From Porticoccaceae bacterium (GTDB lineage: Bacteria; Pseudomonadota; Gammaproteobacteria; Pseudomonadales; Porticoccaceae), in assembly GCA_023228865.1 (NCBI GenBank), contig JALOAH010000002.1, forward strand, positions 1-64,000: a stretch of 64,000 bases of DNA, in the 5' to 3' direction. The notes below the pieces were generated by a model, which worked only from the letters and a program-made list of their open reading frames with translations, was not told where the DNA came from and did no database searches. This document shows, piece after piece, positions 46,940 through 50,742 of this stretch. Numbering within the stretch: the stretch's first letter is position 1; each line of letters starts with the position of its first letter. The position numbers and the translations under genes are program-made.

Positions 46940-47554
46940 ATGACTGAACCTGTTAATTTTGCCCTTGCCGAATTCCTTAAAAGTGCCCCGACCCTGCAGC
47001 ATTGTCCGGCAGACGAAGGCGCCGAAATCGCCTTTGCCGGTCGCTCCAATGCCGGAAAATCCAGCGCCATCAACTGCCTCACCGGGCAGAGTAAACTGGC
47101 CAGAACCAGCAAAACGCCGGGGCGAACCCAGCTGCTTAATTTTTTTACTTTGAGCGCCAGTCAACGGATCGTGGATCTGCCCGGCTACGGCTTTGCCAAA
47201 GTGCCCATTGCCATGAAAAAAGAGTGGGATCGCAACCTGGCCAACTATTTGCAGAACCGCAAGTCATTGAAAGCTCTGGTTTTACTGATGGATATCCGCC
47301 ACCCTTTGCAGGACTACGACTGGCAAATGATCCAGTGGGCGCACCAGTGCAGCCTACCCATGCACCTGTTGCTGACCAAGGCAGATAAACTCAAAAACGG
47401 CCCGGCGAAAGCCACCCAACTCAACGTGGCGCAACAGGTTCGCCTCAAAGGTATTACCAATATTTCAGTGCAGACGTTTTCATCCCTCAAAAAAGCCGGC
47501 CTCGACGAACTCAAACAATTCCTCAATCAACACCTGGCTACCGCAGAGCAGTAA
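46940..47554 (+). CDS. engB: Ribosome biogenesis GTPase EngB (YsxC/YihA)
   Basis: A 204-residue GTPase of 50S assembly with motifs GRSNAGKS (34-41), the switch TPGRTQ, DLPGYG and TKADK. It is convergent with polA across a 464-bp gap that holds two small-RNA candidates. A hairpin at its 3' end (CCGCAGAGCA with TGCTCTGCGG) overlaps the stop. Confidence 0.96.
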   Translation: MTEPVNFALAEFLKSAPTLQHCPADEGAEIAFAGRSNAGKSSAINCLTGQSKLARTSKTPGRTQLLNFFTLSASQRIVDLPGYGFAKVPIAMKKEWDRNLANYLQNRKSLKALVLLMDIRHPLQDYDWQMIQWAHQCSLPMHLLLTKADKLKNGPAKATQLNVAQQVRLKGITNISVQTFSSLKKAGLDELKQFLNQHLATAEQ

Positions 47555-47585
47555 CTTTTGCTCTGCGGAGTGGCAAAATGCGGGC

Positions 47586-47612
47586 AAAAAAAACCGGCGC
47601 ATAGGCGCCGGT
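47586..47612 (-). terminator. Intrinsic terminator in the engB-polA gap (distal)
   Basis: ACCGGCGC (47593-47600) pairs with GCGCCGGT (47605-47612) around ATAG, followed on the minus strand by eight T. Confidence 0.9.
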
Positions 47613-47690
47613 ATAAAATTAACCGGGTTAAACCAAAGGGGAAGAGAGGTTCCCGGTTATTGCTCACAACAAGGAGGGAGATATAAGCAC
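47586..47690 (-). ncRNA. Candidate small RNA downstream of the Spot 42-like RNA
   Basis: A unit of about 105 nt on the minus strand. An ECF-type promoter lies at 47694-47721. The 5' part is single-stranded and carries TATCTCCCTCCTTG (complement of 47673-47680 and flanks), a mimic of the anti-Shine-Dalgarno. A hairpin TAACCGGG/CCCGGTTA (47652-47659 with 47620-47627) has an inner AACC/GGTT stem and a 13-nt pyrimidine loop TCTCTTCCCCTTT. The RNA ends in the terminator at 47586-47612. I know of no described family that it matches. An open frame here lacks an RBS. Confidence 0.6.
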
Positions 47691-47693
47691 TTA

Positions 47694-47721
47694 CTGAGAC
47701 TGGCTCGAAAAGAGAAAGTTC
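47694..47721 (-). promoter_or_regulatory. ECF (RpoE/AlgU)-type promoter of the second RNA
   Basis: On the minus strand GAACTT (47721-47716), a 16-nt spacer and TCTCAG (47699-47694). The known AlgU/RpoE consensus is GAACTT-N16/17-TCTGA; one -10 base differs. Confidence 0.55.
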
Positions 47722-47825
47722 ATCCAAATATGAAAAAAGTTGATTTTTTTATATTTTTTGCCAGCAATCGCCGCTATGGGTGCAGGTTTGGCGACAACGC
47801 CGACAGCATCAGAGACATAACTGCC

Positions 47826-47855
47826 AAAAAAAACCCCAGTCTTTGCAGACTGGGG
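47826..47855 (-). terminator. Intrinsic terminator of the Spot 42-like RNA
   Basis: CCCCAGTCT (47834-47842) pairs with AGACTGGGG (47847-47855) around TTGC, followed on the minus strand by eight T. Confidence 0.92.
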
Positions 47856-47924
47856 AATAATCACTTTTAACTAAGGGGAACAAACATACAGAAACACATT
47901 GGGAGAACATCAACAGCTTCTGTA
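47826..47924 (-). ncRNA. Spot 42/ErsA-like small RNA
   Basis: A unit of about 100 nt on the minus strand, immediately after polA and convergent to engB, the exact place of spf in enterics and ersA in Pseudomonas. It has TACAGA at the 5' end and GATGTTCT shortly after, as in Spot 42, then TCTCCC, and ends in a terminator with the CCCCAGTC...GACTGGGG stem found in Spot 42 (from memory). An ECF-type promoter lies at 47929-47955. P. aeruginosa ErsA is reported to depend on sigma-22, which fits. The 5' end is approximate. Confidence 0.72.
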
Positions 47925-47928
47925 TAGG

Positions 47929-47955
47929 TATAGACAGGCGCAACCATAAAAGTTC
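47929..47955 (-). promoter_or_regulatory. ECF-type promoter of the Spot 42-like RNA
   Basis: GAACTT (47955-47950), a 15-nt spacer and TCTATA (47934-47929) on the minus strand. A sigma-70 reading, TTGAAC-19-TATACC, is possible but has a long spacer. Confidence 0.5.
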
Positions 47956-48018
47956 AAAAAAAATTCAAATATTATTCATAAATTTCTTATCTATATGAAA
48001 AATAGAGATTTTTATTTT

Positions 48019-50742
48019 TCAATGCGCCTCATCCCAATTATTGCCAACCCCCACATCCACCACCAGGGGCACTTCCAGAGTGACGGCGTTCTCCATGATT
48101 TGTCTCACCAATGCCGAAACTCGATCAACGGCGGCCTCTGCAACCTCAAAGACCAGCTCGTCGTGCACCTGCATAATCATGCGGGCATTCACTGCTTCGG
48201 CGGCAAAGCGGGCATTGACGGCCACCATCGCCTTTTTGATGATATCCGCAGCTGTGCCCTGCATGGGCGCATTAATGGCGGTGCGCTCTGCAGCCTGGCG
48301 CATCTGACCATTGCCGGCGCGAATATCCGGCAGGTACAGCCTGCGGCCAAACAGGGTTTCAACAAAACCCTGCTCCCGCGCCCGCTCGCGAATACTGTCC
48401 ATATACCTGGCAACACCGGGATAGCGCTCAAAGTACATGTCGATATAGTCCTGGGCTTCTTTGCGGCCGACGTTGAGCTGGCGAGCAAGACCAAAGGCCG
48501 ACATACCGTAGATAAGGCCAAAATTGATGGCTTTGGCGCTGCGGCGCTGCTCATGGCTGACCCTGTCCAGTGGCGTGGAAAACACCTCTGCCGCCGTCGC
48601 CCGGTGAATATCGAGGCCATCGCGAAAGGCGCTGACAAAGCCCTGATCAGCGGATAGATGCGCCATGATGCGCAGCTCGATCTGGGAGTAATCGGCGGCA
48701 ACGATTTTGTACCCCGAGGGGGCAATAAAGGCCTGGCGAATGCGCCGTCCTTCCCTAGTGCGCACGGGTATGTTCTGCAGATTGGGGTCTGAAGACGACA
48801 GACGGCCGGTTGCCGTGCCCGCCTGATGATAGGAGGTATGGATACGACCGGTGCCCGGATTGACCATCTTCGGCAGCTTGTCGGTGTAGGCGGATTTCAG
48901 CTTGGCCAGGCTGCGGTGTTCCAGAATCACTCGCGGCAGGGGGTAGTCCAACGCCAATTCCTGCAGAACTTCCTCTTTGGTGGACGCCGCACCCTTGGCA
49001 GTTTTTTTGGTGACCGGTATCTTGAGCTTGTCAAAAAGAATCTGCCCCAGTTGCTTGGGAGAGGCCAGGTTAAACTCTTCCCCCGCCAGATTGTAGGCTT
49101 CTGCTTCCAGAACTTTGAGGCGCTCCGCCAGTTCGCGGCTCTGGCTATTGAGCAGGTTTGCATCCACCAGGGCGCCGTTGCGCTCGATTTGCGACAACAC
49201 CGGCACCAGGGGAATTTCAATCTCCTCAAAGACAGATTTCAGTGATCCCGTGGCCTCCAGTCTTGGCCACAGGGTGTGGTGAAGGCGCAGGGTAATATCT
49301 GCATCTTCAGCGGCGTAGGGTGCGGCCTCTTCCAGGGCAATCTGATTAAAGGTGAGCTGACCGGCGCCTTTGCCGGCGATATCTTCAAAGTGAATGGTGC
49401 TGACACCTAAGTACTTTAACGCCAGACTGTCCATATCGTGGCGGGTGGCCACGGAGTCGAGCACATAGGATTCGAGCATGGTGTCAAAAGCGACGCCTGC
49501 CATGGCAATGCCGTAGCGGGCGAGAACGCTCATATCGTATTTGAGATTTTGACCCAGCTTTTTTTTGTCGGGATTTTCCAGCAAGGGTTTGAGCCTGTCG
49601 ATGACAAAGGCGCGCTGCAGTTGCGCTGGAGCCCCCAGATAATCGTGACCAACAGGCACATAGGCGGCTTTTCCGGGTTCCACCGCGAAGGAAACACCCA
49701 CCAGTTCCGCCTCCATGTAGTTAAGGCTGGTGGTTTCCGTATCAAAGGCAAACACCTCTGTCCCTGCAAGTAATTCGAGCCAACGTTCAAATACGGCTTC
49801 GCTGACCACAGTTTCGTAGTCAACCTTGGCCTCCTCAGCAACGGGGGCGGCGTCAACCTCCTGGATTTGCTCTTTAACAAGCTCTTCTGGCCAGGCTTTG
49901 AATTCATACTCTTTGTACAAATCCAGCAATGCCTGGTGATCTTTTGCCCCCGGTGTCAGTAATTGTTCCGCATCAGCCAGGGGCACATCGAGCTTAATGG
50001 TGGCAAGCTGATAAGATAGGTAGGCCTGTTCTTTATATTCCGCGAGTTTTTCCGGCATTTTTTTGGCGCCGCGAAAATCGAGACCGCGCACAGCGTCAAG
50101 ATCAGCGTAAATGGCATCCAGTCCTCCCAGCTCCTGAAGAATAGCCAGGGCGGTTTTTTCACCCACACCGGGAACACCGGGAATATTGTCAGACTTGTCG
50201 CCCACCAGGGCGAGATAATCGATAATCAGCTCCGGCGGTACGCCAAATTTATTAATCACACCCTGGCGGTCGAGGCGGGTGTCCGTCATGGTGTTGACCA
50301 GGGTAACCCGGTCATTGACCAGCTGTGCCATATCCTTGTCGCCGGTGGATATGACGATGTCGCAACCTCTACGGCTGTATTCCTGCGCCAGAGTGCCAAT
50401 CACATCATCAGCTTCGACACCATCGATAATGAGCAAAGGCAGCCCCATGGCGCGCACCAGGTCGTGAATCGGCTGAATTTGCAGACGCAAATCGTCGGGC
50501 ATCGGCGGTCTGTGGGACTTGTAGGACTCAAAGAGCTCATCCCGAAACGTTTTTCCCTTGGCGTCGAAAACCACCACCTGAAGGCTATTGGGAAAATCTT
50601 TGGCCATGCGGCGCAGCATGGAAATTACGCCTTTAATGGCGCCTGTTGGCTGGCCTTTGGAGGTCGTCAGTGGCGGAAGGGCGTGAAAGGCGCGGTAGAG
50701 ATAGGAAGAACCATCCACCAGCACCAGAGATTGTTGTTGCAC
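48019..50742 (-). CDS. polA: DNA polymerase I
   Basis: A 907-residue repair and Okazaki-processing polymerase. The 5'-3' exonuclease spans about 1-290, the 3'-5' exonuclease about 310-500 with an intact site (FDTETTSL, NLKYDMSVL, YAAEDADITL), and the polymerase domain 510-907 has motif A DYSQIELRIMAHLS, motif B RRSAKAINFGLIYGMSAFG and motif C QVHDELVFEV. Proofreading therefore looks functional. It is divergent from thrB and followed by the small-RNA region. Confidence 0.97.
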   Translation of the reverse strand: MQQQSLVLVDGSSYLYRAFHALPPLTTSKGQPTGAIKGVISMLRRMAKDFPNSLQVVVFDAKGKTFRDELFESYKSHRPPMPDDLRLQIQPIHDLVRAMGLPLLIIDGVEADDVIGTLAQEYSRRGCDIVISTGDKDMAQLVNDRVTLVNTMTDTRLDRQGVINKFGVPPELIIDYLALVGDKSDNIPGVPGVGEKTALAILQELGGLDAIYADLDAVRGLDFRGAKKMPEKLAEYKEQAYLSYQLATIKLDVPLADAEQLLTPGAKDHQALLDLYKEYEFKAWPEELVKEQIQEVDAAPVAEEAKVDYETVVSEAVFERWLELLAGTEVFAFDTETTSLNYMEAELVGVSFAVEPGKAAYVPVGHDYLGAPAQLQRAFVIDRLKPLLENPDKKKLGQNLKYDMSVLARYGIAMAGVAFDTMLESYVLDSVATRHDMDSLALKYLGVSTIHFEDIAGKGAGQLTFNQIALEEAAPYAAEDADITLRLHHTLWPRLEATGSLKSVFEEIEIPLVPVLSQIERNGALVDANLLNSQSRELAERLKVLEAEAYNLAGEEFNLASPKQLGQILFDKLKIPVTKKTAKGAASTKEEVLQELALDYPLPRVILEHRSLAKLKSAYTDKLPKMVNPGTGRIHTSYHQAGTATGRLSSSDPNLQNIPVRTREGRRIRQAFIAPSGYKIVAADYSQIELRIMAHLSADQGFVSAFRDGLDIHRATAAEVFSTPLDRVSHEQRRSAKAINFGLIYGMSAFGLARQLNVGRKEAQDYIDMYFERYPGVARYMDSIRERAREQGFVETLFGRRLYLPDIRAGNGQMRQAAERTAINAPMQGTAADIIKKAMVAVNARFAAEAVNARMIMQVHDELVFEVAEAAVDRVSALVRQIMENAVTLEVPLVVDVGVGNNWDEAH

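Follow-up and report, generated by a model that had tools for sequence, protein, structure and literature searches.

What is encoded on the minus strand between polA and engB in this member of the Porticoccaceae, and does the second of the two units found there make a regulatory RNA of its own? The DNA analyzed (the window, 64,000 nucleotides) carries polA (DNA polymerase I; 48019..50742, minus strand), which served as a tblastn query, and its convergent neighbor engB (the yihA/ysxC GTPase gene; 46940..47554, plus strand). Two units, A then B, lie in tandem order on the minus strand of the interval. Unit A (47826..47955, minus strand), an sRNA-like unit in the ErsA/Spot 42 position, follows polA on the same strand and has its own GAACTT-N15-TCTATA box and a terminator (47855-47834) that separates polA from unit B (47586..47721, minus strand, from the -35 box to the end of the U tail). 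Unit A reached 19.1 bits with the Pseudomon-1/ErsA model (gathering cutoff 50) and 18.2 bits with the Spot 42 model (gathering cutoff 80), and is perhaps the counterpart of ErsA. Its stretches GTTCTCCC and TGTTCCCC are common to loci L069 and L071 and less so in other relatives.

Unit B reads, on the minus strand, as a -35 box GAACTT (47716..47721), a 16-nt spacer, a -10 box TCTCAG (47694..47699) and an expected transcript of ~100-105 nt (47586..47689), whose start was inferred from the promoter at 5-7 nt past the -10 box rather than mapped. The transcript would carry the conserved 5' element TCTCCCTCCTTGTTGTGAGCAA (47660..47681), a proposed first seed that is common to unlinked siblings of the unit and includes the C/U-rich CTCCCTCCTTG (47680-47670). 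Hairpin 2 follows (47620..47659), with a 13-nt pyrimidine loop TCTCTTCCCCTTT (47647-47635) as a proposed second seed, and then an intrinsic terminator (47586..47612; stem 47612-47593, eight T ending at 47586). This layout of boxes, C/U-rich segment, pyrimidine-loop hairpin and eight-T terminator had been described in an initial annotation of the window, and we found it on the minus strand exact to the base. The predicted fold has an energy of -38.1 kcal/mol (shuffled mean -20.2, z -6.2, with 0 of 200 shuffles as low) and is beyond chance. The long U tail is the sole sequence feature bearing on Hfq binding. The initial annotation had also seen a near copy of the 16S anti-Shine-Dalgarno in the 5' segment. 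That copy is present in the window (CTCCCTCCTT), but it is the window's own version: five relatives have TCTCYCTCTTC instead, or TCTCCCTCTAC in L100, and the conserved feature is the longer 5' element TCTCYCTCYWYGTTGTGAGCAA, not the anti-Shine-Dalgarno copy itself.

To compare the unit across relatives, we used the 112 genomes of the family of a Porticoccus MAG; this MAG and two Cellvibrionales MAGs have the closest EngB proteins (69-72%). BLAST found close orthologues of unit B in five relatives (G098, G072, G008, G007 and G073; 105-120 bits); in the loci inspected, each directly follows polA, with an A-type unit ahead of it. G072 has two tandem copies, the second of which (L069:1366-1473) is without hairpin 2; this second copy retains the box, the 5' element and the terminator. 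In G007, engB is found elsewhere (C7:111 kb) and the sRNA (C7:56 kb) remains beside polA. Across seven aligned units, identity was 95% at the -35 box (AACTT invariant), 87% at the -10 box (GTCnnA invariant), 89% over the 22-nt 5' element, 85% over the terminator, 80% over hairpin and loop, and 63% over the 5' leader, falling to 40% in the spacer, 36% in the linker and 32% in the 40 nt upstream. Read from the alignment, this pattern is the footprint of a promoter and a functional RNA, and unit B appears to be real because the boxes, element and terminator are conserved while the spacer and the upstream sequence are not. The initial annotation had staked its proposal on a conserved structure and promoter in near relatives, and both were found, in the five orthologues, in the seven-unit identities and in the covariation given below.

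Since unit B follows polA on the same strand, it could also be a processed or read-through fragment of the polA mRNA 3' UTR with no promoter of its own, an outcome on which the initial annotation would have been given up. The terminator of unit A at 47855-47834 intervenes, however, and the unit has its own box, conserved as above where the spacer is not, so that it is not simply polA 3' UTR; siblings with the same element and box also lie far from polA. We therefore regard a polA fragment as very unlikely.

The polA-engB intervals of other relatives hold units of several kinds. Eleven loci (L002, L070, L072, L073, L075, L076, L078-L081 and L085) carry two to three tandem A-like units of the GCAAGCAACATTGCTGCTTTCTCCCCAAACTAGATGCAA type, each behind its own GAACT box. 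Haliea and its relatives (L023, L026, L028, L029, L031, L032, L035 and L048) have a different unit in this place, marked by a GAACTT box and by a GTCTCTTCCCCAGAGAC hairpin that is conserved. The interval of L083 contains two long inverted-repeat pairs, with arms TATCTAGGAATGACTTTTGAGAC and CTGGGGACAGTGTTTGAGAC, that look like a small inserted palindromic element.

We then asked whether the boxes upstream of unit B are of the sigma-E/AlgU type, as had been proposed. A passage of PMC1804206 gives the published sigma-E boxes as GGAACTTTT and GTCAAA. By itself, GAACTT-N16-TCT is not significant in the window, where it occurs once (expected 0.24), as against at least once in 20 of 100 shuffled windows; it is its conservation that serves as evidence. 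The same shuffles would allow promoter-like and hairpin sequences to have come together in unit B by chance, a reading contradicted by conservation, covariation and siblings, and one to which we give almost no credence. On the polA-sense strand, GAACTT was present in 25 of 27 family polA-engB intervals (the window and 26 family loci; shuffled mean 3.2, maximum 7) and on the other strand in 1 of 27. Among 21 intervals from other bacteria it was present in 12 in the polA sense (shuffled mean 2.0, maximum 5) versus 3 on the opposite strand. Genome-wide, GAACTT-N16-TCTNA showed no excess in the five relatives (11 matches versus 20 for the reversed control); seven of the 11 matches were five sRNA units and two sites upstream of rpoH (G008 and G073). 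RpoH, like FtsX, was recognized from its sequence; rpoH is a classic sigma-E/AlgU target. A box was also seen upstream of rpoE, as GAACTT-N16-TCTAGT in G072 and GAACTA-N16-TCTAGC in G073, with no clear box in G008 and G007 (four genomes looked at); the RpoE model was over its cutoff in four of the five genomes, G098 being the exception. Because the same box stands upstream of rpoH in two relatives and of rpoE in two, control of unit B by sigma-E/AlgU is supported, and its promoter is likely of this type. With its conserved boxes and own terminator, the unit fits the separate sRNA gene with an RpoE/AlgU-type promoter that was first proposed.

To determine how far the structure extends, as the initial annotation had suggested, we built a covariance model, R1, from six units including that of the window. 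R1 matched 30 of the 112 family genomes (E ≤ 0.01). In 20 of these, coordinates place the match next to engB or immediately behind polA; G065 and G068 carry unlinked siblings; and the remaining eight are weak matches by model score (27-33 bits). An order-wide search yielded six of 390 sampled genomes at the same threshold, of which G072 (a strong match) and G096 (linked to polA and engB), both family members, are the sole ones that hold up. The other four, G329, G438, G462 and G380 (L108, L110-L112), have no polA or engB nearby, resemble the terminators of other genes and were set aside. The plasmid collection searched gave no match.

Seven copies were found at other loci: one each in G098, G072 and G068, two in G073 and a pair in G065, with no polA or engB within ~2 kb on each side by tblastn. 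The 5' element is closely kept in the siblings of G098, G072 and G073 and has a diverged form in G065 and G068, and the sibling terminators differ from one another. Six siblings have GAACTT; that of G098 has GAACTA with a poor -10 box. The sequence TCYYTYTTCGTTGTGAGC has eight zero-mismatch matches in the 112 genomes, each within an sRNA unit that R1 detects. Over 29 members, in an alignment that was fitted to the covariance model, all 19 of 19 pairs showed double-sided changes. None of 500 shuffles reached the 87 cells counted, and slid controls gave 4-19. An unfitted six-row alignment gave four pairs and six cells (22 and 1 of 500 shuffles). Further pair types in this second alignment were not above shuffles (340 of 500). 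Unit B is a member of a new RNA family that belongs, as far as searched, to one family of Cellvibrionales-type bacteria, and it is very likely a real gene.

A 66-codon TTG-start frame (47527-47727) overlaps unit B, which raises the possibility of a small protein gene or, alternatively, of a cis-acting leader. The orthologues vary by 1-nt indels, at lengths of 109-114 nt, and start-to-stop frames that end inside the RNA have at most eight codons, occur in two of six units and are not shared; these points count against a protein. A leader would have no gene to act on in cis, because engB, behind the terminator, is on the opposite strand. Either form of this explanation seems to us extremely improbable.

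The initial annotation knew of no family with this structure downstream of the Spot 42/ErsA gene, and Rfam bore this out: nothing reached gathering cutoffs in the whole window or in 14 loci of relatives. At 47300-48300, 23 Rfam matches were found up to E 10, all under gathering, and MicA, RybB and VrrA are absent from them; unit B itself had no Pseudomon-1 (RF01719) or Spot 42 (RF00021) match up to E 10. In the open-licence literature we found no description of an sRNA from this bacterial family, though one may be in print elsewhere.

Which mRNAs might such an RNA act on? The initial annotation proposed that it represses outer-membrane protein (OMP) mRNAs and suggested a target prediction, which we performed in G007 and G072 using home-made gene calls that hold spurious ORFs; the G007 background was 1818 genes from 2.2 of ~2.65 Mb. 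With both segments joined, pairing energies in G007 placed OMP genes at ranks 10, 179, 372 and 415 of 1586. Because OMP genes did not stand out by these energies, the two segments (5' element and loop) were scored separately against start regions, a choice made after seeing the data. Four G007 genes match Pfam OMP_b-brl: ompW ranked 12th of 1818 with the element, L323 9th and the OmpA-like L338 13th with the loop, and L327 82nd and 150th. Pfam confirmed OmpW for one G007 gene and OmpA_membrane for L323. As a class, the four gave a min-z p of 1.9e-5 (5e-5 versus 1011 genes bearing a Shine-Dalgarno sequence, 7e-4 by energy alone), values that are optimistic because three of these genes had already drawn attention in an energy ranking when the class was defined. 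At 12 nt, the exact complement in L338 is the longest among 1585 genes, and ompW carries GCTCACAAC beside its Shine-Dalgarno sequence, a word that occurs three times in 2.2 Mb.

The signal outside G007 was weaker. The six OMPs of G072 were not significant (min-z p 0.078; single measures 0.036-0.13; Shine-Dalgarno-matched 0.15 and 0.29). For ompW in three other genomes, the combined p was a weak 0.035 (element) or 0.09 (core), and ompW of G073 had no core match. Tested against shuffled seeds, 20 OMP leaders from five genomes gave Fisher p values of 4.5e-6 (element) and 0.0045 (loop), which are overstated because ~10% of ordinary genes also have z below -1.65 for the element; start codons of these 20 genes were set by eye, and L339 (internal stop, under cutoff) and L341 (under cutoff) were left out of the counts. 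The 55 ORFs in the window's 64 kb included no convincing target. Repression of OMP mRNAs is thus backed by predicted pairing that is significant for the class in G007 and by a weak ompW signal elsewhere, and is left without significant class support in G072. Given that unit B is a gene, its RNA is plausibly an OMP repressor.

The result in G072 also fits a genuine sigma-E-type sRNA that acts mainly on mRNAs other than those of OMPs. Its C-rich loop would then repress G-rich leaders in general, in the manner of sX13, on metabolic or regulatory genes and perhaps on rpoE itself as feedback. No other sequence is shared as widely among the 29 members as this loop, and in listings of 150 genes the rpoE leader of G072 comes 6th with the element and 2nd with the loop. 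In G007, on the other hand, the rpoE leader ranks just 144th (element) and 47th (loop) of 1818, and the OMP signal is present. We consider this alternative possible but rather unlikely as an account of the main targets; feedback on rpoE as such is possible. As a separate observation, the Shine-Dalgarno region of rpoE reads GGGGAGA in G072, G073 and G007 (L190, L192 and L193) and is complementary to the C-rich segments.

On balance, we lean towards unit B being a self-standing sigma-E-type sRNA gene of a new family whose two seeds would block OMP mRNAs at times of stress. The promoter would produce an RNA of ~100-105 nt that ends at its own terminator and exposes C/U-rich sequence in two segments: one is the 5' element UCUCCCUCCUUGUUGUGAGCAA, the other the hairpin 2 loop. 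Under envelope stress, these segments may pair with the Shine-Dalgarno regions of outer-membrane beta-barrel mRNAs and block translation, with ompW predicted to be reached through the 5' element and OmpA-like genes through the loop. The gene would sit after polA, sometimes in tandem, and have unlinked siblings. More tentatively, the polA-engB interval may be a nursery of sigma-E-driven sRNAs that duplicate and escape, giving a two-seed, multi-copy OMP brake with possible feedback on rpoE. If so, this would be an undescribed layout of a multi-copy envelope-stress brake in which stems and terminators change freely and the two seeds are kept, each for different outer-membrane mRNAs. The locus supplies sigma-E-type sRNA units in most of the family intervals examined, tandem copies, unlinked siblings and a testable division of labor between two seeds. 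It could serve as a natural series for how envelope-stress sRNAs arise, duplicate and choose OMP targets beyond enterobacteria.

By comparison with known sRNAs, unit B may work like MicA, RybB or sX13, and none of the Rfam families tested claims it. ErsA of Pseudomonas aeruginosa is described in a passage of PMC8575079 as an sRNA of the polA-engB interval, and in excerpts of PMC7565897 as dependent on the envelope-stress sigma factor sigma-22; a portion of PMC5819304 likewise presents it as a sigma-22-dependent polA-engB sRNA. Unit B also lies between polA and engB, with a sigma-E-type box where ErsA has sigma-22, but it is a second gene downstream, and the sole weak Pseudomon-1 match is unit A. 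Spot 42 (RF00021) is also found downstream of polA; here again the weak match is to unit A only. sX13 of Xanthomonas is polA-adjacent, and its C-rich loops are proposed to meet G-rich leaders (excerpt of PMC3771888). Unit B shares the polA-adjacent position and a C-rich hairpin loop, but has one such loop together with a 5' element; sX13, for its part, acts without Hfq. sX13 does not appear among the locus's matches to Rfam up to E 10, though Rfam may hold no sX13 model. MicA and RybB of enterobacteria appear in a passage of PMC1804206 as sigma-E sRNAs acting on omp mRNAs, with RybB-ompW pairing predicted earlier, and VrrA of Vibrio cholerae, likewise a sigma-E sRNA, represses ompA via 5' pairing, according to part of PMC2628432. 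Unit B resembles these in its sigma-E-type boxes, conserved among the relatives, and in its proposed pairing with omp leaders, its effects on mRNAs being predicted only. It differs from them in its genomic place, its two C/U-rich segments and its multi-copy siblings.
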